A stretch of 64,000 nt of DNA from Pedobacter sp. SL55 (GTDB taxonomy: Bacteria; Bacteroidota; Bacteroidia; Sphingobacteriales; Sphingobacteriaceae), in assembly GCF_026625705.1 (NCBI RefSeq), contig NZ_CP113059.1, positions 2,356,001 to 2,420,000 of the forward strand. Direction: 5' to 3'. Both the position numbers and the translations under genes were made by a program. Below, piece by piece: positions 5,747 to 48,055 of the stretch; within the stretch, counting starts at the first letter, position 1, and the number at the start of each line of letters is the position of its first letter. The notes beneath the pieces were generated by a model. That model was not told the origin of the DNA. It saw only the letters and a program-made list of their open reading frames with translations, and did no database searches.

Positions 5747-7138
5747 ATGAACTCGAATAACAACATATCGCAAAGTAATCCTAAGCAAAACGCTGTTGGA
5801 CAAGCTCGCATTGTTATTTTGGGTGCAGGCGAGAGCGGAGTAGGTGCGGCCAAATTGGCTCAAAAGCAGGGTTTCGATGTTTTCGTTTCAGATTTTGGTG
5901 GCATAGCGGATGTTTACAAAGCTGATCTACAAGAGATGAATATCCCTTTTGAGGAAAACCAACATACCGAAGCGTTGATTTTGAATGCTACAGAGGTGGT
6001 TAAAAGTCCAGGTATTCCTTCAAAAGCGCCTATCGTAAAAGCATTAGTAGAAAAAGGCGTTCCGGTAATCTCAGAGATTGAATTTGCAAAGCGTTACACC
6101 AATGCCAAAACGATTTGCATTACAGGCTCAAACGGCAAGTCTACTACGAGCATGCTTACGTATCATATCCTAAAAAATGCAGGATTAAATGTTGGTTTGG
6201 CTGGCAATATAGGGCACAGCTTTGCAGCACAAGTGGCAGATCAAGAATTCGATTGGTATGTTTTAGAAATATCAAGTTTTATGCTAGATGATATGTATGC
6301 GTTTAAAGCAGACATCGCTGTATTGCTCAACATCACACCAGATCATTTAGACAGATACGATTATAAAATGGCCAATTACGCGGCTTCGAAAATGCGTATT
6401 GTGCAAAATCAAACCTCAGCCGATGCTTTTATTTACTGTGCAGACGATGAAGAAACGAATAAAGTTTTAGCAACAGCAAATATAGCAGCGCAAGCTTATC
6501 CTTTTTCTATTATTAAAAAAGTAGAACTAGGGGCCTATTTAGAAGACAATAACATTTATATCAACACCAATTTAAACAACACATTAACCATGTCAATTTC
6601 GGATTTAGCCTTACAAGGTAAGCACAACATTTATAACTCAATGGCTTCTGGCATCGTAGCAAAGGTATTAGAGTTGCGCAACGAAACTATCCGCGAGAGC
6701 ATGGGTGAGTTTAAAAACATAGACCATAGGTTAGAGTTTGTAGCAAAGATCAATGATGTTACTTACATCAACGATTCTAAAGCTACTAACGTGAACTCTA
6801 CTTGGTACGCCTTAGAAAGTGTAAACAGCGATGTGGTGCTAATTATGGGTGGTGTTGATAAAGGCAATGACTATGAGATGCTGAAGGATTTGGTAAAAAG
6901 CAAAGTTAAAGCAATTATTTGTTTAGGTAAAGATAACAAACGTATACACGATGCTTTTGAAGATGATGTAGATGTAATTGTGAATACTTTTTCTGCAGAG
7001 GAAGCTGTACAGGTCGCTTACCATTTAGCTAAAAAGGGCAGTACGGTGTTGTTGTCTCCAGCTTGTGCAAGTTTCGATTTATTTAAAAACTATGAAGATC
7101 GTGGCAACCAATTTAAGGCAGCTGTGAAAGAACTATAA
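5747..7138 (+). CDS. murD: MurD, UDP-MurNAc-L-Ala:D-Glu ligase
   Basis: A cytoplasmic Mur ligase that adds D-glutamate to UDP-MurNAc-L-alanine. It has an N-terminal Rossmann-like uracil-binding domain (VILGAGESGVGAA), a P-loop (ITGSNGKSTT), the central INDSKATN motif and the C-terminal ligase domain ending with SPACASFD. The ATG at 5747 is chosen. A GTG at 5726 is in frame, but it lies inside the AATCGGTG phrase repeat and would add only MKSQKNR. Even with the ATG start the protein has a polar N-terminal extension of about 20 residues before the first strand, so the exact start is uncertain. Confidence 0.95.
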   Translation: MNSNNNISQSNPKQNAVGQARIVILGAGESGVGAAKLAQKQGFDVFVSDFGGIADVYKADLQEMNIPFEENQHTEALILNATEVVKSPGIPSKAPIVKALVEKGVPVISEIEFAKRYTNAKTICITGSNGKSTTSMLTYHILKNAGLNVGLAGNIGHSFAAQVADQEFDWYVLEISSFMLDDMYAFKADIAVLLNITPDHLDRYDYKMANYAASKMRIVQNQTSADAFIYCADDEETNKVLATANIAAQAYPFSIIKKVELGAYLEDNNIYINTNLNNTLTMSISDLALQGKHNIYNSMASGIVAKVLELRNETIRESMGEFKNIDHRLEFVAKINDVTYINDSKATNVNSTWYALESVNSDVVLIMGGVDKGNDYEMLKDLVKSKVKAIICLGKDNKRIHDAFEDDVDVIVNTFSAEEAVQVAYHLAKKGSTVLLSPACASFDLFKNYEDRGNQFKAAVKEL

Positions 7139-37115: not shown

Positions 37116-37124
37116 AGGGTAAAG

Positions 37125-37664
37125 TTAATGGTATCCCTTAAAATAAATCCTATTTGTAATCAAAGTATCAGTTTTATTAACTGAAATTTTTTGGTTATCG
37201 TAGGTAAATCCACTTAATAAAGTTTGGTTTTCTAATATCGAAATTTGAAACACAAGCTTGTCAATATCGAGAGAATTGAGGTAAGTTTCGTAGGAAGCAA
37301 TTAACCCAATTTCTTGCGTTTTACAATAAATTCCACTCTCAAAATTTAAAGGAGTTTCATCCATTTGGTATTGATATAAAGGAAACAGAAGATAATCTGC
37401 ATTTAGATCTGCCATTTTTAGTTTTATCGCTTTTTTACCTGCAAACCATATTTCAATCTGGTTTTTATAGGTGTTTAGCAACCCACGTAAAAGCGTATGA
37501 GTTGGTAGGTTGTTTACAAGATCCAAATAAGGAGGCGATTGCATGGCTTCATTAAAATCATTGGTTTGGTAGGATGAGAATTGTTTAAAATTGTTTTGGT
37601 TTTTAATGACCAATTTTTCTATGCCAATACCTTCGCCAAATAAGTTGATTTTTAGTTTTTTCAA
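37125..37664 (-). CDS. Hypothetical protein (179 residues)
   Basis: No family recognised. The N-terminus (MKKLKINLFGEGIGIEKLVI) lacks a signal peptide; the rest alternates short strands and charged loops, with a Phe/Tyr-rich middle, suggesting a soluble mostly beta protein. It lies between yjbQ (9 bp) and the next small gene (9 bp), all on the minus strand, so the three probably form one transcript. Confidence 0.55.
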   Translation of the reverse strand: MKKLKINLFGEGIGIEKLVIKNQNNFKQFSSYQTNDFNEAMQSPPYLDLVNNLPTHTLLRGLLNTYKNQIEIWFAGKKAIKLKMADLNADYLLFPLYQYQMDETPLNFESGIYCKTQEIGLIASYETYLNSLDIDKLVFQISILENQTLLSGFTYDNQKISVNKTDTLITNRIYFKGYH

Positions 37665-37673
37665 AGTATACAG

Positions 37674-38072
37674 CTATTTGTTTTCAACTTTTATAAGTAT
37701 GCGAAGTTCTTCTATTCTCTTTTCAATATCACGTAATTGGGCTGTATATTCATACGCTTGCTTATTAACCAAAAGGTCTTTTAAAATAGTAATTCTTCTG
37801 GTTTCTATATCCAAACAATTATTTACGGTATCCATATATTCGTAAATTATGGGTTTAAACGAAAGGTTTAATCCTTCAATCTTTTCTCTTACCCCAAATA
37901 GTTTCTCTTCGAAAGTTTGTAGCCAACGTAAGCTATATTCATCCTCATGCTTCTTTACTCTTGCGGTTAATTGTATGGCAGCTTTTCCAATGTCAGAAAA
38001 TACTTGGTGCATTTCCTCTAGGTTTTCATTCATTTCTTCGTGAAAAGATTTTTTGAAGTTGTTTTTTAGCAT
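37674..38072 (-). CDS. Hypothetical helical/coiled-coil protein
   Basis: No family recognised. From ATG 38072 the product is about 132 residues, almost wholly helical, charged and without signal peptide (MLKNNFKKSFHEEMNENLEE, ending in IEELRILIKVENK). An upstream in-frame extension to 38159 contains Cys/His-rich text unlike the rest and is probably not translated. It is likely co-transcribed with the two downstream minus-strand genes. Confidence 0.5.
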   Translation of the reverse strand: MLKNNFKKSFHEEMNENLEEMHQVFSDIGKAAIQLTARVKKHEDEYSLRWLQTFEEKLFGVREKIEGLNLSFKPIIYEYMDTVNNCLDIETRRITILKDLLVNKQAYEYTAQLRDIEKRIEELRILIKVENK

Positions 38073-38159
38073 AATTAAAAAGTTTATGCAAAATTGAGTT
38101 GCTATTACGCCAAAGTGTGACGTTGAGGTATGCTGGTTGGAAAAAATAAATGACGACAT

Positions 38160-38706
38160 ATTTTGGCGTGCTTGGAAGATAGGTTTGTCATTGTAAGACT
38201 GAAATCTATTTGATTTAACTTGAATAAAATAGGTTAATCCGTAAAAGAATTAAATTGTTAAATCTATAATGGTATTACAGCTCACGATAGAACCTTGAAC
38301 TAAATTATTTCTATATTTGAAAAGCCTTAAGCAATTGAGGTTTTTTTATTGGAAAGCGTTTAGCTTATTCCTCATTGATGAATCTGGACAATTCAATTGT
38401 GTTGAGGGAATAATGGGAACGTTCTTCTTTGGTTTTCATATACGGCACTCAGGTGCTTTATATATCCCAAAGGCGTGAGCTGTTTTTCCTTGTATTCAAC
38501 ACAAGCTTGTCCAGAGCTTATCATTGATATAGGTCTAATGGTCTTGCGCCTTCTTTGTTAATGGATAACCCCTTCTTTAAAGACCGAGAAGATTTTTATA
38601 GTTTTTTAACTGCGACACGGATTGACAGAGCCTCGGCTTAGGTTTGTGTTAACAACAAGCGTAGTAAAAAACTTTATAGAGTAGGCATAATATAGACCAA
38701 AAAAAT
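38160..38706. other. Intergenic region, no gene recognised
   Basis: About 550 bp without a convincing gene. It holds a possible hairpin (CCTTAA / TTGAGG followed by T-run, 38325-38348). No tRNA or transposon remnant was recognised. It separates the household genes to the left from the accessory block to the right. Confidence 0.45.
38325..38348 (+). terminator. Possible terminator
   Basis: CCTTAA / TTGAGG around GCAA, with one G-T pair, followed by seven T. No + strand gene ends here, so its role is unclear. Confidence 0.4.
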
Positions 38707-39012
38707 ATGGCAATTTCAAATATCGAAAGAAAGGGTTCTTGGTATGAGGTTTACAACGAACAAGGCAAGAAAACAAAAACTTTAGCTGCAAGTCTTGGAG
38801 AACTTGAAGGGTTTAGTGCTCACTTCTTTATTCTATCTAAAGGAGCTTGGTATGAGCTTTATGACGAAAGTGGAAGAAAATATAAAACTCTTGCAAAAAG
38901 CATTGGCGATTTTATTTCTATATCTGGAAATACATTTGTGTTAAGAAATGGGGCTTGGCTTGAGACGTATGATAATACCGGCAAGAAAATAAATACACGT
39001 TCTGCAAGATAA
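38707..39012 (+). CDS. Three-repeat small protein of unknown function
   Basis: A 101-residue protein built from three units of about 37 residues: GSWYEVYNEQGKKTKTLAAS, GAWYELYDESGRKYKTLAKS and a shortened GAWLETYDNTGKKINTRSA. The core G-(A/S)-W-x-E-x-Y-(D/N)-x-x-G-(K/R)-K suggests short beta-hairpin repeats forming a propeller or a beta-sheet. I recognise the type as recurrent in Bacteroidota but know no function. It lies 9 bp before the exonuclease gene, so the two may be co-transcribed. Confidence 0.65.
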   Translation: MAISNIERKGSWYEVYNEQGKKTKTLAASLGELEGFSAHFFILSKGAWYELYDESGRKYKTLAKSIGDFISISGNTFVLRNGAWLETYDNTGKKINTRSAR

Positions 39013-39021
39013 AAACACTCA

Positions 39022-39513
39022 ATGAAATCTTTTGTCGCTCTTGATTTTGAAACGGCTAACCAGCACCGAAGTAGTGTGTGCAGTATAGGTTTGGTATTTG
39101 TAGAAAATGCTAAAATTAAAAATAGCTTTTATCAGCTGATTAAGCCAATGCCAAACTTTTATTGCAATTGGGCAACTGAAATTCATGGTATAAAATATTG
39201 GGATACTGTTAAAGCCTTGGAATTTCCCGATATATGGAACGCTCTAGCAAGTCAAATTCAAGATTTACCTCTGGTGGCTCATAACAGTGCTTTTGATGCG
39301 GGATGCTTAAAGGCTGCATTAGCGGCTTACGGACTGCCTGTGCATCAAAACCAGTTTTTCTGTACCTACAGGAAATCAAAAAGTTTGTTCCCGGAATTAC
39401 CAAACCATAAACTAAACACGGTTTCAGAACATTTAGGATTTAAACTCAAAAATCATCACAATGCTTTGGCAGATGCCGAGGCTTGTGCATATATTGCGAT
39501 GAGGGTGTTTTGA
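39022..39513 (+). CDS. DEDDh-type 3'-5' exonuclease (DnaQ-like)
   Basis: A compact exonuclease domain of 163 residues with all motifs: Exo I DFET (Asp8, Glu10), Exo II HNSAFD (Asp about 94) and Exo III-epsilon HHNALADAEA (His and Asp). DEDDh enzymes degrade DNA or RNA 3'-5' with two metal ions. It is too short to be a DNA polymerase III epsilon with its clamp-binding tail. It stands 35 bp before the DUF262 pair, which hints at, but does not prove, a shared function. Base composition is like its left neighbour. Confidence 0.88.
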   Translation: MKSFVALDFETANQHRSSVCSIGLVFVENAKIKNSFYQLIKPMPNFYCNWATEIHGIKYWDTVKALEFPDIWNALASQIQDLPLVAHNSAFDAGCLKAALAAYGLPVHQNQFFCTYRKSKSLFPELPNHKLNTVSEHLGFKLKNHHNALADAEACAYIAMRVF

Positions 39514-39548
39514 GTTTGGTGTGTTTAGAATTTAGATAATATATTAGT

Positions 39549-41321
39549 ATGATAGAACCAAAAAAAATTAAAGAGATAAATTTCTCGGATAATATTTATT
39601 TTATCCCTTCCTATCAGCGAGGCTATCGTTGGGATAGAAAGCAAGTTGAAGAACTTTTAGATGATATCTATGAAGTATATCTGACTAAACAAGAGTCGTA
39701 TTGCTTGCAACCTATTGTAGTAAGTAAAATTGAAGAAAACAAGTATGAAATAATTGACGGGCAGCAGAGATTAACAACCATATACATACTACTGACTCGA
39801 TTCAAACGATTTATTGATGAAAAATTCCAATTGGATTTTGAAGTTAGGCAAAATTGTGTAGATTTTTTTAAAAGATTAGACGGAGGAAGTTTTGATTACT
39901 CTAATCCCGATTTTGCGCACATATCAAATGCTTACAAAGTAATTGATTCTTGGTTGAATATTAAGAAAGAAACAAAAGTTGATTCCAATGTCGAAATGAA
40001 TATTTTTCAAACTTTGTTAGAAAGAGTTGAAGTAATTTGGTATGATGTTGAAGAAAGCAATAGAGAAGAACTGGTAAAAGTATTTACCCGATTGAATAGT
40101 GGAAAAATAGGTTTAACTAATGCAGAATTGATAAAAGCTTTGTTTTTGAGTAAAGCAAATTTTGAAAATCAATCAAAAGATGTATATACGCATCAATTGG
40201 ATATTTCTAACAAATGGAATCAGATAGAAAATGCCTTACAAAATGATGACTTCTGGAATTTTATTAATAAGTCTGAAAACAAATTAGCAACCAGAATAGA
40301 TTATATATTTCAATTAATTGTACGAAATAAAAATTTAGAAATAAAAGAGAAGTTTGATGTCTTTAGATATTACTATCCGCTTTATGTAAAATCTCGAGAA
40401 TCTAAAGAATATGATTTTATTGAATCAAATTGGAATGAAATTGATTTATATTTTACCATCCTTCAAGATTGGTATTCAAATCATGAATATTATCATTTGA
40501 TAGGATTACTTATTTGGGATGGTGCTGATGAATTGGCTCTTATAAGAGAGTATCAAGAATCTAATAAGAAATTATTTGTCAAATATCTTTTCGAAGAAAT
40601 AGGAAATCGTTTTTGTAACATAAAGGTTGAAGATTTAGATTATATAAATTCTTACAATCAAGTTGAGAGGACATTAGTGTTTTTTAATGTTATGGAAGTA
40701 TATCGTTCCAAAACTAATAGATTTCCTTTCAAACAATTGAAAGTTAAAGAAATTAAATGGAGTTTGGAACACATCCATCCACAAAATGCTCTAGATGTAA
40801 AACAAAGTGAGTATTCACAATGGCTTGAAGACCACAAAAAAGTTCTTAGAGCAATAGGTTCTGATGATGAATTAACTGATAGAATAGAAAATCTTATTGT
40901 ACAATTAAAAGAAATAAATGCAAAAAACCTTAGACTACAATTTGAAGATTTATCCAGAGAAGTTTTAGAAAATCTCGATTACAAAGAGAACAACAGGGAA
41001 AGTATCAGTAAAAAATCAAAAATACCATTTGAAAAATTGATTGGTGAACATCATATTTCTAATATGGCATTGTTGGATACGAAAAAAAATTCTTCATTAG
41101 GAAACAGTGCCTTTGGAGTAAAAAGAAAGTCAATAATTGATTTTGAGTTAAAAGGATTTTATATACCAAACGCAACCAAAAACTCTTTCTTAAAGTATTA
41201 TTCAGATTATCCAAAGTGCCTTAATTATTGGACTTTAGAGGACAGAGATGAATATTTATTCAAAATTCAAGAGCAGATGAATTTTGTAAAAACCCAAAAT
41301 TTAGAAACTTATGAATATTAA
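39549..41321 (+). CDS. DUF262/DUF1524 protein (GmrSD/SspE-like), first of an overlapping pair
   Basis: A 590-residue protein. The N-terminal DUF262 domain has IPSYQRGYRWD (about residues 19-29) and the nucleotide-hydrolysis motif DGQQRLTT (70-77). The C-terminal DUF1524 nuclease region has the HNH-like motif LEHIHPQNA (about 406-414) and SNMALLDTKKNSSLGNSAF (about 504-522). This layout is that of GmrSD-type modification-dependent restriction and SspE-type defence proteins: DUF262 hydrolyses nucleotide and the HNH domain nicks or cuts DNA. The DNA is visibly more A/T-rich than its neighbours. It overlaps the next gene by 11 bp. Confidence 0.88.
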   Translation: MIEPKKIKEINFSDNIYFIPSYQRGYRWDRKQVEELLDDIYEVYLTKQESYCLQPIVVSKIEENKYEIIDGQQRLTTIYILLTRFKRFIDEKFQLDFEVRQNCVDFFKRLDGGSFDYSNPDFAHISNAYKVIDSWLNIKKETKVDSNVEMNIFQTLLERVEVIWYDVEESNREELVKVFTRLNSGKIGLTNAELIKALFLSKANFENQSKDVYTHQLDISNKWNQIENALQNDDFWNFINKSENKLATRIDYIFQLIVRNKNLEIKEKFDVFRYYYPLYVKSRESKEYDFIESNWNEIDLYFTILQDWYSNHEYYHLIGLLIWDGADELALIREYQESNKKLFVKYLFEEIGNRFCNIKVEDLDYINSYNQVERTLVFFNVMEVYRSKTNRFPFKQLKVKEIKWSLEHIHPQNALDVKQSEYSQWLEDHKKVLRAIGSDDELTDRIENLIVQLKEINAKNLRLQFEDLSREVLENLDYKENNRESISKKSKIPFEKLIGEHHISNMALLDTKKNSSLGNSAFGVKRKSIIDFELKGFYIPNATKNSFLKYYSDYPKCLNYWTLEDRDEYLFKIQEQMNFVKTQNLETYEY

Positions 41322-43596
41322 TTATACCCTTTTAGATATATTAACCAACAAAATCTTTATTTATAAAAATGTTTCAAAGGAGCTCCTTCAAATCGAAAAC
41401 GGAATAGAAATCCCAATGATTCAGAGAGATTACGCTCAAGGTCGAAGTGATGAAAAAACGACTTATATCAGAGAAAAATTTCTTAAAGATTTACATTTCG
41501 TCATGCGAGAAAGCCAAAACGGAAGTGATAAGCATCTGAATTTAGATTTTGTGTATGGCTATATTGAAAATTCAACTTTTATTCCTCTTGATGGTCAGCA
41601 AAGATTAACCACTTTATATATTATCTATTGGTTTCTTGCTTTTAAAGACAATGTCTCTTTTTATGAAAATGGTTTGCACCTATTTAGTTACAAGACAAGA
41701 CAATCTGCAAAAGAATTTTTAAAATCATTAAACAAAGATGAAAATATAGAAAAAATAAGAATTGAGACAGAAGAAAACCTGCAAAAAATAGTTTATACAA
41801 TAAAAAATCAACCATGGTACAATCTTAACTGGAATTATGACCCAACTGTAAAAGGTATTCTGCAAACATTGAAAGATGTATCAATACTTTTTTCAGATAT
41901 TTCATTTACTACATTAAAAGAAAAACGACCTGTTAATTTTCATTTTTTGCAAATTAATGAATATGGATTAGGTGATAATCTCTACATAAAAATGAATGCA
42001 AGAGGAAAACCTCTTTCAGACTTTGAAAATTTTAAAGCTTCTTTTGAAAATGTAATATCATCAAACAACTCATCTAAAATTTTTATAGAAAAAATAGATG
42101 GCATCTGGTTAGATGTTTTTTGGAAATTTACTACCGAAAGTTTCAATAAACCTATCGATGTAGAACAAGATGTTTCTAAATTCACGAAGCGATGTGATGA
42201 ATTGATGCTTTCATTTATCAAAAAAATAACCGAATATTTATACTATAAAGATAATATTGATAGAAATTATCAATTCAATGATATAGCTATTGACATAATT
42301 TATTCAAAAGAAGAAAACCTACAAGTATTAATTCAAACCTTCGATTTAATAATTGGGCTTGGGTACAAAGAATGGGTACATTATTTTGATGATATTTTCT
42401 CTGAAAAATTCCAGAAAGACAGAATTGCAATTAACCAGCCATCGCTAAATCCTATTCTGAAAATCTTTAACAATGAGAATTTTTCGCATTTTGAAAATCT
42501 TTTATTATTTGCGTGGTTAAATTATATCACAAGAGCAAATTCTATAAATATCACCTCTGATTTAAAAGACTTTTTACGAATTATTAGAAATTATATCAAC
42601 AATGTCAATCAGAAAAATAAAACATCTTTAGATTCAGAACTAAGAACAGATTATTACAATGATATATTAAACACTATTTTTTCTTTATCAATATCTAATC
42701 CATTTAAAAATCTGAATATTACATCAGTATCTTTTAGAAAAGAGTATATTCAATATGAGATAGCAAAATACAATCTTTTTCAAGATGATATTTCTCGAAA
42801 AGATTTAATTTTCGAGTTTGAAGACCATTCAACCTTAAGAGGGTTGATTTTCAATTTTGATCTTAATTCATATACCAATGCTGAGCTACAAAAAATTACA
42901 GATAATTTTTACAGCTTGTATAGAGAAGTAGTTTATCAAGATATTATCCGTCTATTATTGTGTTTCGGGGATTATTCCATAAATGTAGGGTACTCAAATT
43001 TAGGAGAATTTAGATTTTTCGGACAAAAAGAAAAATGGCATCGGGTTTTAGCATCACCAGATGGAGAAATAAAGCCAAATTTTGAGGAGTTATTTAAAAT
43101 ATTTTCACAAGAAAACATTAGCGATTGGCATAATTTCATTGAAACCAAAGTTTCAGAAAATATAGAAAGTCATAAAGATAGTTGGTTATGGTATTGTTTA
43201 AACCCAAAATATAAAACTACACTTGACTATACTATTTACACAAAAAATGATAAGAATAGAGTTGAAATTTTTTATAACCAAAGCTTGAATTCTTATCATT
43301 ATAATCCATTTATATATTGGTTCAGATATCATAGCCCGCAATATGTTAGAGTTCACATTAATGAAGCTGAATCTTGTGCTCAATACTCAAATTTTAGCAG
43401 ATTACATTTAAAAAATGGTGTTGAATTAGAACAAATCAATAACAATTGGGTTGTTTACAATTTGGGTAAAGAATTCAATCATTCATCTTTTAAATTTGAT
43501 GAGGAGCGTAACTGCTATATTTTAAGTTGTGAAAACTTAATTGAGGAATTAATTCCTCTTATTGAAATTTTAAATGATTATAGATTGGATAACTAA
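41311..43596 (+). CDS. Large DUF262-domain protein without HNH, second of the pair
   Basis: A 761-residue protein. The DUF262 signatures are IPMIQRDYAQGRSDEK (about residues 35-50), PLDGQQRLTTLYIIYW (about 93-108) and a KMNARGKPLSDFENFK motif (about 227-242). No HNH/DUF1524 motif is present; the remaining 500 residues have no family I recognise. It begins inside the end of the DUF1524 gene, implying coupled translation and a two-component complex, one subunit with and one without the nuclease. It too is very A/T-rich, consistent with horizontal acquisition. Confidence 0.82.
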   Translation: MNINYTLLDILTNKIFIYKNVSKELLQIENGIEIPMIQRDYAQGRSDEKTTYIREKFLKDLHFVMRESQNGSDKHLNLDFVYGYIENSTFIPLDGQQRLTTLYIIYWFLAFKDNVSFYENGLHLFSYKTRQSAKEFLKSLNKDENIEKIRIETEENLQKIVYTIKNQPWYNLNWNYDPTVKGILQTLKDVSILFSDISFTTLKEKRPVNFHFLQINEYGLGDNLYIKMNARGKPLSDFENFKASFENVISSNNSSKIFIEKIDGIWLDVFWKFTTESFNKPIDVEQDVSKFTKRCDELMLSFIKKITEYLYYKDNIDRNYQFNDIAIDIIYSKEENLQVLIQTFDLIIGLGYKEWVHYFDDIFSEKFQKDRIAINQPSLNPILKIFNNENFSHFENLLLFAWLNYITRANSINITSDLKDFLRIIRNYINNVNQKNKTSLDSELRTDYYNDILNTIFSLSISNPFKNLNITSVSFRKEYIQYEIAKYNLFQDDISRKDLIFEFEDHSTLRGLIFNFDLNSYTNAELQKITDNFYSLYREVVYQDIIRLLLCFGDYSINVGYSNLGEFRFFGQKEKWHRVLASPDGEIKPNFEELFKIFSQENISDWHNFIETKVSENIESHKDSWLWYCLNPKYKTTLDYTIYTKNDKNRVEIFYNQSLNSYHYNPFIYWFRYHSPQYVRVHINEAESCAQYSNFSRLHLKNGVELEQINNNWVVYNLGKEFNHSSFKFDEERNCYILSCENLIEELIPLIEILNDYRLDN

Positions 43597-43669
43597 TTTG
43601 CATGCCACTTAACCACGCCACATTTTGTCCTAACCTATCTTCATCTTTGTTTTAACTAAACAAAATGTC

Positions 43670-44563
43670 ATGTCTAAAGTAGAAATTAATTTAAGGCAAA
43701 ACGCCCTCATTAACAAGTTAAAGCAAAAGCCGGCTACACTTAAAGAAATTAATGCGTATTTGGCCATACAGTCAGAATTGAGCGGATGCAATTTAACAGT
43801 AAGCACACGCACCATTCAGCGTGATATTGCCGATATTTTAACCACGTATGGCATTTCCATTGTTTGTAACAAAAGCAACAACCAGTACTATATAGAAAAC
43901 ACCGAAGATGAAGTTTTTAACACCCGCCTAATTGATGCCTACAATACCGTTAACGCATTAAAGGCTGGTGTAGGTTATGCAGATTGTATGGTGTTTGAGC
44001 AATACGCTGGCGGTACCGAATATTTGCATGGCATACTGCACGCCATTAAAAATAGGTTGCAGTTGCATATTACCCATCATAGCTATTATGAAGTTATCCC
44101 TAGGCTGCGAAAAATTCATCCTTATTTTTTAAAGGAATTTAAAGGACGTTGGTATGTGGTGGGCAAAGATATAGAAATTGCCGAAATGCGCACTTTCGCC
44201 CTCGATCGTATAAAGGATGTGGAGATAACCAAAAAGACATTTGTGTTACCCAAGCAGCCTACAGCATATTTTGGTGACAGTTTCGGTATTATAGCGAAGG
44301 ATGGTGATAGCAAACCCATAAAAGTTGTGCTATGGTTTGATTCAGAGCAGTGCAAGTATGTGAAATCTTTGCCCTTGCATAAAAGTCAAAAGATAATCAG
44401 TGAGGATAAAAATGGCTTAACCATAACACTTTTTGTACATCTTACCTTCGATTTTGTGAAGGAAATTTTGTCTTATGGAGAAAAGGTAAAGGTTTTAGAA
44501 CCTCAACAATTGGTAGAGAATGTTAAGGATAGGTTTAAAAGAGCCATTGCGCATTATGAGTGA
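43670..44563 (+). CDS. WYL-domain transcription regulator
   Basis: A 297-residue protein. Residues 1-80 form a winged helix-turn-helix (RTIQRDIADIL), and the central and C-terminal parts are a WYL domain (LRKIHPYFLKEFKGRWYVVG, FALDRIKDV) and a WCX-like tail (VVLWFDSEQCKYVKSLPLH). WYL regulators often control defence genes and sense nucleic-acid or nucleotide ligands. It follows the DUF262 pair by about 70 bp in the same orientation, and its stop overlaps the next gene. A TTTG...CATCTTTG pair at 43624-43649 (14 bp apart) is a weak promoter candidate. Confidence 0.85.
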   Translation: MSKVEINLRQNALINKLKQKPATLKEINAYLAIQSELSGCNLTVSTRTIQRDIADILTTYGISIVCNKSNNQYYIENTEDEVFNTRLIDAYNTVNALKAGVGYADCMVFEQYAGGTEYLHGILHAIKNRLQLHITHHSYYEVIPRLRKIHPYFLKEFKGRWYVVGKDIEIAEMRTFALDRIKDVEITKKTFVLPKQPTAYFGDSFGIIAKDGDSKPIKVVLWFDSEQCKYVKSLPLHKSQKIISEDKNGLTITLFVHLTFDFVKEILSYGEKVKVLEPQQLVENVKDRFKRAIAHYE

Positions 44564-45182
44564 AAGAATGATTATTAAAGAGGTTTTCGATGGCGTTTGG
44601 AAAGAAATTGAACTTGTCTATAAATCTGGTTTAATATGCTCCGAAAGGCATCTGCAAAGCGAAATCTTTAGCTTGCTTAAAAATAACATAAGTTTTAGCT
44701 CGGTCTATACTGTATTTATAGGGCCACGCGTTGATCAAAATACTTGTGAAAATTTACACGGTAAAATCCCTGATTTGATCATTGTAAATCATCGTAGTAA
44801 GGAAATAGTTGCTGTAGTAGAACTAGAATACGTACCATTCTCGTATCCAGCATATAAAAAGGATTTAAGCACCTTACTAAATTTTTTCAATAACCGAAAA
44901 GCCATTACTATGCCGTTGTTTACCAACCCAAATACAGGTTTGTGGACTAATGAGAAATTTAAAATCAGCGAAAGCCCAATTCTTGCATATTGCGTTATAG
45001 CCAAAGCAGATGCTCATGTGATAACCCAATACAAAAGCGGTAACATTAAAGAGCTGTGGGGAGAGGAGGGATTGGCGAATTATTTGCAGTACGTTGGTGC
45101 GGTTGGAGATGAGATAAGTTTTTCGGAAGAACTATCAATTACAAATCCAACACCACTTTTAAATTTTGCTTTACCAACTTAA
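44556..45182 (+). CDS. Hypothetical protein with possible PD-(D/E)xK-like fold
   Basis: The product from ATG 44556 is about 208 residues (MSERMIIKEVF). It overlaps the WYL gene by 8 bp. The text HGKIPDLIIV, 12 residues, then VAVVELEYVPF resembles the PD...(D/E)-x-(K/E) core of restriction-type nucleases, with Glu in the usual Lys position, so it may be inactive or bind DNA only. No family is recognised. The upstream in-frame start (44520) would extend inside the WYL gene and is not favoured. Its end overlaps the convergent mazF gene by 44 bp. Confidence 0.55.
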   Translation: MSERMIIKEVFDGVWKEIELVYKSGLICSERHLQSEIFSLLKNNISFSSVYTVFIGPRVDQNTCENLHGKIPDLIIVNHRSKEIVAVVELEYVPFSYPAYKKDLSTLLNFFNNRKAITMPLFTNPNTGLWTNEKFKISESPILAYCVIAKADAHVITQYKSGNIKELWGEEGLANYLQYVGAVGDEISFSEELSITNPTPLLNFALPT

Positions 45183-45474
45183 CCTGTTCTTTGGTCAGTT
45201 CGCCTAATTTAGAAATTAACCTACGGTTGTCTATGGCACGCATTTGGTCAATTAAAATATCACTTGCTTTATCTAGTTGAGAGGTATTTAAGTGTACACG
45301 TAAAATTTCGAGCTGGGGCAACACATTAGAAGTAATTGGGCAAATAATAGATGATGGATGCACGCCGTTTAGTAAATTGGTTTGTACCACCACCACCGGG
45401 CGTGTTTTGCCTGGTTCTGTGCCTTTGGCGGGGTTAAGGTTGGCCAGCCATATATCAAATTGCTTAATCTGCAT
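45139..45474 (-). CDS. mazF: MazF/PemK-family mRNA interferase toxin
   Basis: An 111-residue protein with the family features: KQFDIWLANLNPAKGTEPGK, TRPVVVVQTN, SIICPITSN and the DQMRAIDNRRL segment. MazF toxins cut single-stranded RNA at short sites. Its ATG overlaps the stop of the upstream antitoxin frame (ATGCAGATTAAG), the normal coupling of such pairs. The length and the R in the RPV motif are intact, so the toxin may be active although the antitoxin reads as broken. Confidence 0.9.
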   Translation of the reverse strand: MQIKQFDIWLANLNPAKGTEPGKTRPVVVVQTNLLNGVHPSSIICPITSNVLPQLEILRVHLNTSQLDKASDILIDQMRAIDNRRLISKLGELTKEQVKLVKQNLKVVLDL

Positions 45475-45695
45475 CTAAAATCCGTTCAAATTCTTCCAGT
45501 ACATCCAAAGAGTTGCCGTAGGCAACTTTAGACTCTTGCAGTAGCTGGTGTTTTAATAATTTCCGCTTTTTGGTATTCATTAAAAACTCTCAGTGCCTCA
45601 TTAATGTAACGGTTTCTAGCAATTTTTAATTTATCCGTTACTTCTTCGGTTTCGTTAAAAATATCGTCATCTAGTTTTAAAGAAAGTGTTTTCAT
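45464..45695 (-). pseudogene. MazF-partner antitoxin (ribbon-helix-helix type), frame interrupted
   Basis: From ATG 45695 the frame reads MKTLSLKLDDDIFNETEEVT and then a helix-turn-helix-like RNRYINEALRVFNEYQK, ribbon-helix-helix antitoxin style. The frame then shifts near 45560 (AAAAAGCGG) and stops early at 45528. Continuing in the other frame gives RKLLKHQLLQESKVAYGNSL and then DVLEEFERILDAD, whose stop overlaps the mazF start. One extra base (or two missing) explains it. An antitoxin cannot be lost while the toxin stays intact, so an indel error is likely. Confidence 0.75.
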
Positions 45696-45809
45696 CTCTT
45701 TTTTTAAATTATAGCCACAAATAATTCTGTAGTTTATCTAAACTCAATAAATAAAATCTTTGCCTCTGTAGCTAAGATAAAAACAAAAGTATATATTTTT
45801 GGTGTATAC

Positions 45810-46640
45810 TCAAAATATTCCATCCAAAAACTTCAAGCTCTTTTCGCAAACTTCAAACAACTGCGGTGGTAAAGTTTCGCCTGGATAGGGATGCACGGCG
45901 CCATAAACATGATTAGCGCCATCAATTTTTACCAATCTACTTGCTAAGTTAGCATTTGCCAATTTCTCGGCAGTTTCAAAAGGCACATTTACATCATCAT
46001 CGCCTTGCACAATTAACCAAGGTACGTTCACTTTTTTCGCTGCCGAAAGAATATTAAGCTGCTCACCATTCTCCTCAAAATCTTCCAGTAAAGTCACATT
46101 TAAGGGCATAGTTTCTTTCGTTCTAGCATTGTAAACGCCAATTTTTCCATTTTTTCGCCACTCTTCTTCTTGTTCTTTTTTCCATAAAATACTAAAATTA
46201 GCAATAGCACTCCAAGTAACCAAACCTTTTACATACGGATCATTAGCGGTTTGTAAAATACTTAACCCACCACCTCTGCTGTGGCCAATTAAATAAACTC
46301 CATCAACCCCTAAATATTTTACAGCATGATCAATCACAATATTGATATCTGTCATTTCTTTGCTAAACGTATTCGATGCAAAAATTTCCATATCAGTAAC
46401 ATCATTGTTTTTTTGTGGATCTACGCCGCCATGAGATAAGTTAAACTTAAGATAGCGATAACCATTCTGAACAAAATATCTGGACACTAAATTATGTGCT
46501 CCCCAATCTTTAAAACCTTTAAAACCATGAATAAAAATTATTAGGGGCGTATTGGTGTTTTGCGTGTCGTAACTAAGGTCGCCGTGTATGGGCTTGCCTG
46601 CCGCCCCAACTAATGAAAACTGTTCTTGATGATACATCAT
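45810..46640 (-). CDS. Alpha/beta-hydrolase (dienelactone-hydrolase/esterase type)
   Basis: A serine hydrolase: nucleophile elbow GHSRGGG (Ser), an HGFKGFKDWGAH oxyanion loop near the N-terminus, Asp in QGDDDVNVPF and His in GANHVYG complete the triad. The likely start is ATG 46640 (MMYHQEQFSLVG, 276 residues), since an upstream extension to 46727 is odd hydrophobic text. The longer start would give 305 residues. Substrate unknown; similar proteins are called esterases or dienelactone hydrolases. It is divergent from hemA. Confidence 0.82.
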   Translation of the reverse strand: MMYHQEQFSLVGAAGKPIHGDLSYDTQNTNTPLIIFIHGFKGFKDWGAHNLVSRYFVQNGYRYLKFNLSHGGVDPQKNNDVTDMEIFASNTFSKEMTDINIVIDHAVKYLGVDGVYLIGHSRGGGLSILQTANDPYVKGLVTWSAIANFSILWKKEQEEEWRKNGKIGVYNARTKETMPLNVTLLEDFEENGEQLNILSAAKKVNVPWLIVQGDDDVNVPFETAEKLANANLASRLVKIDGANHVYGAVHPYPGETLPPQLFEVCEKSLKFLDGIF

Positions 46641-46830: not shown

Positions 46831-48055
46831 TTGGAATATTTAAAGATTATTGCATTTACACATCAACAAATTGACCTAAAGTCGTTAGGTAAATTAGTTA
46901 TTTGTGAGCAAACGTTGGATGATAGGTTGCGTAATGTCCAATCTGAGTTGAATATCAAAGAGATATTTTACGTAGGCACCTGTAACAGGGTAGAATTTAT
47001 ATTTACCGCTCCTGGGCAGTTAGACAAATCTTTTATCTCTAAATTTTTGCATGTACTTGATATGGGTTTGCCCGAAAAGTACATGGAAAACTTCATCAAC
47101 AATGTTTCTACTTATGAGAAAGAAGAGGCTTTTAATCACTTGTTACGTATTTCTTGTTCTTTAGAAAGTTTAGTAGTGGGTAAAAGAAATTTTAGCACAG
47201 GTACGCAAAGCTTATGAGGCTTCCAAAAAGGCAGGTTTTACTGGCGATTATATGCGTATGATCATGAGCCGTGTGGTAAAAACAGCGAAAGAAGTTTATA
47301 CCCATACCAATATTTCAAGAAATCCAGTTTCTGTAGTTTCTCTAGCTTATAGAAAACTACGTGAACTAAATATGTGCGCTAATTCTCGTTTGCTCATCAT
47401 TGGCGCAGGCGAAACCAACAATAACATTGCACAATATCTTAAAAAGCACAAATGCTCTAACTTTTCGGTATTTAACAGAACATTAGAAAAGGCAGAAAGT
47501 TTGGCTAAAGAGCTTAACGGTAAGGCTTTTCTTCTAGAAGAACTATTCAATTACAAAGACGGTTTTGATGTAATTGTAACTTGTACTGGAGCAACGGAGC
47601 CAATCATTACTACTGAACTTTATCAGAGCCTATTGAACGGCGAAACCAGTAAAAAAGTAATCGTAGATTTAGCTATCCCAAATGATACTGCGGTAGAGGT
47701 GAGAGAGAATTTCCCCATTCATTACATCGAAGTAGAGTCTTTAAAAGAGGTTGCCCGCAAAAATATTCAAGAAAGATATGACGAGCTTGTTCATGCAGAG
47801 CACATTATAGCAGATAATATTAAAGAATTTGAATCTGTATTACGCCAACGTCGTATTGAATTGGCCATGAGCGAGGTGCCGCAGAAAATCAAAGCTATTA
47901 AAGAAAAGGCGGTAAACACAGTTTTTGCCAACGAAATAAACGCACTTGATGATGATGCCAAGGCTGTTTTAGAGCAGGTAATTAGCTACATGGAAAAAAA
48001 ATACATCAGCGTGCCCATGTTGATGGCTAAAGATATTCTGGTTAAGAATAGTTAA
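46831..48055 (+). pseudogene. hemA: HemA, glutamyl-tRNA reductase, frame interrupted near 47188
   Basis: The first part (46831-47187) encodes the catalytic domain, with nucleophile Cys51 in GTCNRVEF. Near 47188 the expected GKREILAQVRKAYEASKK is lost: the frame reads GKRNFSTGTQSL and stops at 47217, while the continuing frame gives ILAQVRKAYEASKKAGFTGD and the whole NADPH and dimerisation domains to 48055 (GAGETNNNIAQYL, GATEPI). The mismatch is two missing bases (GAGA to GA) or one extra. HemA makes glutamate-1-semialdehyde from Glu-tRNA, the first haem step, so loss is unlikely. TTG start at 46831. Confidence 0.88.

Follow-up and report, generated by a model that had tools for sequence, protein, structure and literature searches.

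A DUF262 gene pair flanked by an exonuclease and a WYL regulator

We focused on a candidate defense locus of Pedobacter sp. SL55, located on the plus strand of a 64,000-nucleotide stretch of DNA (referred to here as the window) that is part of a single-contig 4.44-Mb genome. The core of the locus consists of two genes for DUF262 proteins, which probably represent a new member of the recently described GrwAB kind of restriction system. The first gene (39549 to 41321) codes for a putative GrwA-like catalytic subunit of 590 amino acids, D1, with a DUF262 domain (QR24, DGQQR74, and FxxxN183) and a DUF1524 His-Me nuclease domain (H408, N505, and N514). The second (41311 to 43596) codes for a putative GrwB-like partner subunit of 761 amino acids, D2, in which a DUF262 domain (QR39, DGQQR98, and YIKMN229) is followed by a helical middle and a C-terminal part without an identified fold or a nuclease motif. 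Among Pfam models, GmrSD_N matches both D1 (5e-35) and D2 (1e-18), GmrSD_C matches D1 under its cutoff (E value of 0.00056), and no nuclease domain is found in D2. Upstream of the pair lies a gene for a short DEDDh 3'-5' exonuclease of 163 amino acids (39022 to 39513; RNase_T, 2.9e-23; residues D8, E10, D92, H146, and D151). Downstream are a gene for a WYL/WCX transcriptional regulator (43670 to 44563; WYL, 9.8e-15; WCX, 3.8e-13; HTH_11 under its cutoff) and one for a 208-amino-acid PD-(D/E)xK-like orphan with the motif PD...ELE (44556 to 45182), which has no Pfam match.

All coordinates, overlaps, motifs, and composition values of a preliminary description of the locus held when we rechecked them. 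D1 and D2 overlap by 11 nt, the WYL gene starts 73 nt past the D2 stop codon, and the WYL and PD...ExE genes overlap by 8 nt, where an earlier ATG of the latter would give 220 amino acids. The pair is more A/T-rich than its surroundings, with a G+C content of 0.279 (D1) and 0.269 (D2) versus 0.384 for the exonuclease gene, 0.379 for the WYL gene, and 0.371 for the window. An Rfam search gave no match, and σ70-like sites numbered 42 versus 39.0 expected, for a consensus that does not cover Bacteroidota promoters.

An obligate pair of DUF262 genes

We collected 131 loci with a relative of D2, which include four near-identical pairs of loci and amount to 127 after merging. Sample 1 (87 loci) comprises the window, L109, the best 80 of at least 573 D2 relatives, and 5 of 17 plasmid records. 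Sample 2 (33 loci) comprises all 11 other genomes of one search, 17 of 18 further genomes, and 5 genomes of the genus; left out were one genome with the match at a contig end, 8 genomes of the genus whose matches were weaker, and L111. All 11 viral loci found complete the set. A relative of D1 was located directly upstream of a relative of D2, on the same strand, in 131/131 loci. In a set of 88 loci (sample 1 minus L019, with L118 and L120 added), D1 adjoins D2 as a single open reading frame (ORF) in 87; in the 88th, L066, the D1 reading is split into two ORFs. Within the same set the two genes abut or overlap in 57 of 87 measured gaps. The link holds in both directions in plasmids, because all 13 records in which D1 was covered to at least 80% fall among the 17 records with D2. 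Furthermore, the sequence distances of D1 and D2 correlate with each other (r = 0.911; n = 122; 0/999 permutations). Across these loci, pairing of the two DUF262 genes is obligate.

The D2 relatives among the matches listed come from Bacteroidota, Bacillota, Pseudomonadota, Actinomycetota, Campylobacterota, and other phyla. Closer to the window, D2 was matched in 1 of 58 relatives, its own genome aside, and its profile matched 16 of 145 genomes of the genus, own genome included and with several of the matches weak. No relative of D2 was found among named phage records by tblastn at an E value of 1e-5.

Both proteins retain their predicted functional residues. Over 122 aligned pairs, E407 and H408 of D1 are kept in 122, N505 and N514 in 121, and R74 in 118 (with 4 gaps), and in D2 R39 and R98 are kept in 122 and E504, R423, and N427 in 121. 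The HNH-like motif had been noted in the first DUF262 gene only, and this is confirmed: H408 is invariant in the 122 D1 proteins, and the strict pattern [EDH]H[IVL]xP is found in 16/122 D1 and 0/122 D2 proteins, most D1 proteins having A or S in place of the proline. The spacing of the two nuclease asparagines is matched by 110/122 D1 proteins versus 12/122 D2 proteins; in D1 their distance is 9 in 120/121, with a wide spread from the histidine to the asparagine (64 to 109). A degenerate DUF1524 domain in D2, around an LEDH stretch (504 to 506), was not supported in a profile comparison, which aligned nothing beyond the DUF262 parts. Structurally, D2 aligns with BrxU, SspE, and DndI from residue 1 to about 480. 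Beyond residue ∼500 no structural match was listed, from which nothing follows, as this stretch was not folded alone.

The core resembles GrwAB

According to the available text of a 2025 report (PMC12137116), GrwAB is a GmrSD-like system of two proteins for the restriction of phages whose DNA is modified; it was described from one island of Vibrio cholerae, with a reported occurrence in about 1% of genomes. GrwA is the product of the first gene, and in GrwB a DUF262 domain is combined with further domains of unknown nature. Neither protein is dispensable, nor is either set of residues, and escape mutations fall in DpdA, a DNA-modification enzyme (PMC12137116). The Pedobacter core has this organization as far as that text describes it, with a DUF262-DUF1524 gene first and an adjacent DUF262 gene with a long, unknown C terminus. 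Its first protein carries QR, DGQQR, and FxxxN together with the His-Me H/N/N residues, and its second has the long C terminus and no nuclease domain. The published residues (R81, H431, N521, and N530 in GrwA and R86 in GrwB; PMC12137116) lie inside the range of the D1 and D2 families, a wide range that we compared with the published numbers and not with the sequence. The distance between N521 and N530 of GrwA is 9, the same as the tight distance in D1. In L049, the residues are R80, H428, N518, and N527 (D1) and R89 (D2). No Vibrio was found among the best 120 proteins listed by a search that started from a proteobacterial relative, nor among the plasmid records.

Judging from the published residue numbers and the architecture, and not from an alignment with GrwB, we consider the core to be probably a new member of the known GrwAB kind (probability of about 0.78). 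The preliminary description had read the locus as a two-subunit nuclease that senses modification or invaders. A modification-sensing nuclease in which a catalytic DUF262 subunit is joined by a noncatalytic one is well supported. The description did not recognize this exact gene set, but the core is not new, since GrwAB has the same gene order and architecture. The Bacteroidota locus differs in containing an exonuclease and a WYL protein, neither of which is mentioned with GrwAB in the available text (PMC12137116). BrxU, SspE, and DndI, single-chain DUF262 enzymes, share the DUF262 domain, but the descriptions of them that we consulted do not include a D2-like partner. PADLOC models from 2023 gave no match for the D2 of the window and two relatives. 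Our literature search of 5.39 million papers, which left most subscription papers outside, found two that name GrwAB and, among the matches listed, no description of GrwAB with an exonuclease and a WYL protein. WYL, DUF262, and exonuclease are combined in two papers; judged from the titles, one deals with BREX and type IV restriction, and the other is a general review.

The exonuclease and the WYL regulator are optional partners

Relatives of the exonuclease include PolC, DinG, DnaQ, and Cas2-DEDDh. We scored exonuclease and WYL neighbors with profiles built from the loci themselves, dropping exonuclease matches below 80 bits (e.g., a 44-bit match in L140) and WYL matches below 60 bits. An exonuclease was found no more than 4 kb from the pair in 12/131 loci (12/127 after merging near-identical ones); in 8 of these 12, it shares the strand of D1 and ends at most 40 nt upstream of it. 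In a tree, the linked exonucleases occupy at least three separate positions. Every one of the 12 loci also has a WYL gene, which is encoded on the strand of the pair and no more than 6 kb away from it. As controls we used 37 of 51 places with the exonuclease, leaving out the one in the window and 13 whose open frames reached at least 453 amino acids; D1 or D2 was near none of the 37, and a WYL gene was nearby in one (L185). When the distance was strictly measured from the exonuclease (∼6 kb), the counts were 10/12 versus 1/37, the WYL genes of L004 and L088 being slightly over 6 kb away. The exonuclease, earlier placed in the defense locus, is thus a recurrent partner but an optional one, and an obligate role can be rejected from its presence in only 12/131 loci and its separation from the pair in eight other genomes. 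A small zinc-ribbon-like protein, recognized by eye and with Pfam matches under the cutoff, precedes the exonuclease or defense genes in L004, L084, L088, and L185.

The WYL gene is found near 24 of the 131 pairs, with weak matches in L035 (73 bits) and L129 (93 bits). Palindromes like CGACATATTTTGTCG were found before 6 of 22 WYL genes examined, and for the other 16 no palindrome was better than chance. Those like CGACATAYTTTGTCG lie ∼30 to 60 nt before the likely WYL start in L109, L110, L161, L163, and L166 and, in degenerate form, in the window. There, the degenerate operator-like site CGCCACATTTTGTCC (43616 to 43630, plus strand, 3 mismatches) starts 54 nt before the WYL ATG, and the only site with 1 mismatch to CGACATAYTTTGTCG, CGACATATTTTGGCG (38154 to 38168, plus strand), lies in the divergent region left of the operon. 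Outside the window, 2.9 Mb of loci contain eight sites with at most one mismatch, all in WYL-holding loci, against 0, 0, 0, and 1 in four shuffles, for a consensus derived from the very sites scored on it. The proposed control by the WYL protein is supported only indirectly, through recurrent linkage and the palindromes before some WYL genes.

In the available texts, WYL proteins can bind single-stranded DNA according to a review (PMC12409362), and the WYL repressor BrxR controls an island with a GmrSD-family enzyme (PMC9122601). The WYL protein of the window resembles BrxR-type proteins in standing beside a restriction system; it has WYL and WCX domains, with the HTH_11 match staying under the cutoff, and its sites are candidate operators. 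In L111 (5054 to 9987), a more distant DUF262 pair is directly followed by a WYL gene 49% identical to that of the window, and a palindrome with 2 mismatches is located 88 nt upstream of the first gene of that pair.

Transfer of the pair as a two-gene cassette

The locus is part of an island between a YjbQ-family gene and an α/β hydrolase gene (37116 to 45825, edges approximate). Three close relatives (L150, L151, and L152) lack the island at this site, because their matches to the two flanking genes end 13 to 15 bp apart; the island's 161- and 179-amino-acid genes were not found in them. Comparison with Sphingobacterium alimentarium (L004) gave a single ungapped block of 4,034 nt (39548 to 43581) with 91.6% identity, which extends from 1 nt upstream of the D1 ATG to a point 15 nt short of the D2 end. 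Outside the block, the exonucleases are 39% and the WYL proteins 42% identical. D1 and D2 are therefore transferred together, in the form of an almost exact two-gene cassette.

At the same site of a sister species (genome G150, L109), with host genes beside it 80 to 94% identical, we found an exonuclease (66% identity), D1 (31%), D2 (38% over 266 residues), a DnaB-like ATPase, and a WYL protein (37%). The ATPase is a stand-alone DnaB_C-type protein encoded at 6701 to 7585 of L109, between the GrwB-like and WYL genes. In the window, the 179-amino-acid gene (37125 to 37664, minus strand) has a 46% identical homologue in the same place in L109, and the 161-amino-acid gene (37674 to 38159, minus strand), divergent from the defense operon and without a Pfam match, has one of 56% identity, from which its true start is probably near 38069. 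Neither gene was found in 16 other YjbQ-site stretches (tblastn for the 179-amino-acid gene). In L112, an exonuclease of the same family stands beside the YjbQ gene, with TIR-like proteins nearby (by eye), hinting that this site takes other defense genes.

Neighboring genes

The PD-(D/E)xK-like protein had been listed in the candidate locus. We regard this rare orphan, whose motif is altered, as a probable bystander, because no relative was found in the other 130 pair loci and the usual lysine is missing. A protein search gave two homologues, each with PD...ELK at the position of the window's PD...ELE (residue 91); no homologue was found in 144 of the 145 genomes of the genus, the window's own aside, and the structure model of the 208-amino-acid protein (predicted local distance difference test score of 43) was too poor to use. 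A conserved six-gene system was rejected for the same lack of relatives. Upstream of the exonuclease, a gene for a 101-amino-acid protein with imperfect repeats (38707 to 39012, plus strand; 108-nt repeat spacing) has one relative among the other 130 loci (76.5 bits), directly after the exonuclease and WYL genes of the viral contig L129. On that contig (6220 to 12398), D1, D2, exonuclease, WYL, and this relative are encoded in a row. A PemK/MazF-like toxin gene (45139 to 45695) overlaps the end of the 208-amino-acid gene, with an antitoxin-like reading in two overlapping ORFs, as if interrupted. Further downstream (46831 to 48055), a hemA-like gene is present as two ORFs (46831 to 47217 and 47252 to 48055), where L213 and similar relatives have one of 408 amino acids, indicating either a disruption or a sequencing error.

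Proposed mechanism and alternatives

We propose that D1 and D2 would form a complex whose DUF262 domains bind nucleotide, hydrolyze it, and recognize modified bases when phage DNA comes in, after which the DUF1524 His-Me domain of D1 (H408, N505, and N514) would cut that DNA. The upstream exonuclease would most likely trim the broken ends, and the WYL protein would most likely repress its own gene and nearby promoters via CGACATATTTTGTCG-like palindromes, to be released by a nucleic-acid signal of infection. The sensed modification, complex formation, end trimming, and repression with its release are what we infer for this locus. A GrwAB-type core is the probable explanation, at the probability given above, and the roles of the exonuclease and the WYL protein stand at about even odds. 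A tighter version, in which a four-gene GrwAB includes feedback, with the exonuclease making single strands and short products that the WYL protein senses, lifting repression at CGACATATTTTGTCG operators so that cutting amplifies expression, appears unlikely.

The alternatives mostly concern these two partners. With a chance somewhat short of even, only GrwAB would be the defense unit, the exonuclease and WYL genes being independent residents of clustering Bacteroidota defense islands. Several observations weigh against our assignment of roles and for this view: both genes are optional (12 and 24 of 131 loci), the other eight genomes with both pair and exonuclease in a 395-genome sample have them apart, type I restriction genes occur next to the pair as well (HsdR-like in 11/88 and HsdS-like in 10/88 loci, one protein of each cluster Pfam checked), and L185, the one control locus where exonuclease and WYL occur together, encodes a further defense candidate, PDC-S26. 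Independent residence is harder to reconcile with exonucleases ending at most 40 nt from D1 on the same strand in 8/12 loci, with their several places in the tree, and with the WYL excess over controls. More tentatively, exonuclease and WYL, sometimes with the zinc-ribbon-like protein, may form a reusable module that serves several nuclease defense systems, GrwAB being one. The gene order of L185 (zinc-ribbon-like protein, PDC-S26 nuclease, AAA protein, exonuclease, and WYL) fits this idea, as do L004 and L088 (zinc-ribbon-like protein, exonuclease, GrwAB, AAA protein, and WYL), but only one example without GrwAB was present among the 37 control loci. Finally, the core being a TgvAB- or classical GmrSD-type enzyme instead of GrwAB is very improbable. 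These systems have DUF262 and DUF1524 domains in common with the locus, and TgvAB, in the available text (PMC11411939), likewise has two DUF262 proteins, one with DUF1524 and both needed. However, its partner gene apparently comes first and its nuclease histidine is at 571, whereas at our locus the nuclease comes first with the histidine at 408; TgvA and GrwB are moreover reported to differ outside DUF262, as far as the available text tells (PMC12137116). In classical two-gene GmrSD, GmrS and GmrD have one domain each, while both proteins of the locus carry DUF262.

For the biology of these systems, the almost exact two-gene cassette shows the pair traveling, where GrwAB was known, from the available text, from one V. 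cholerae island. With two partners and a candidate operator named, the switching-on of a type IV restriction system becomes directly testable.

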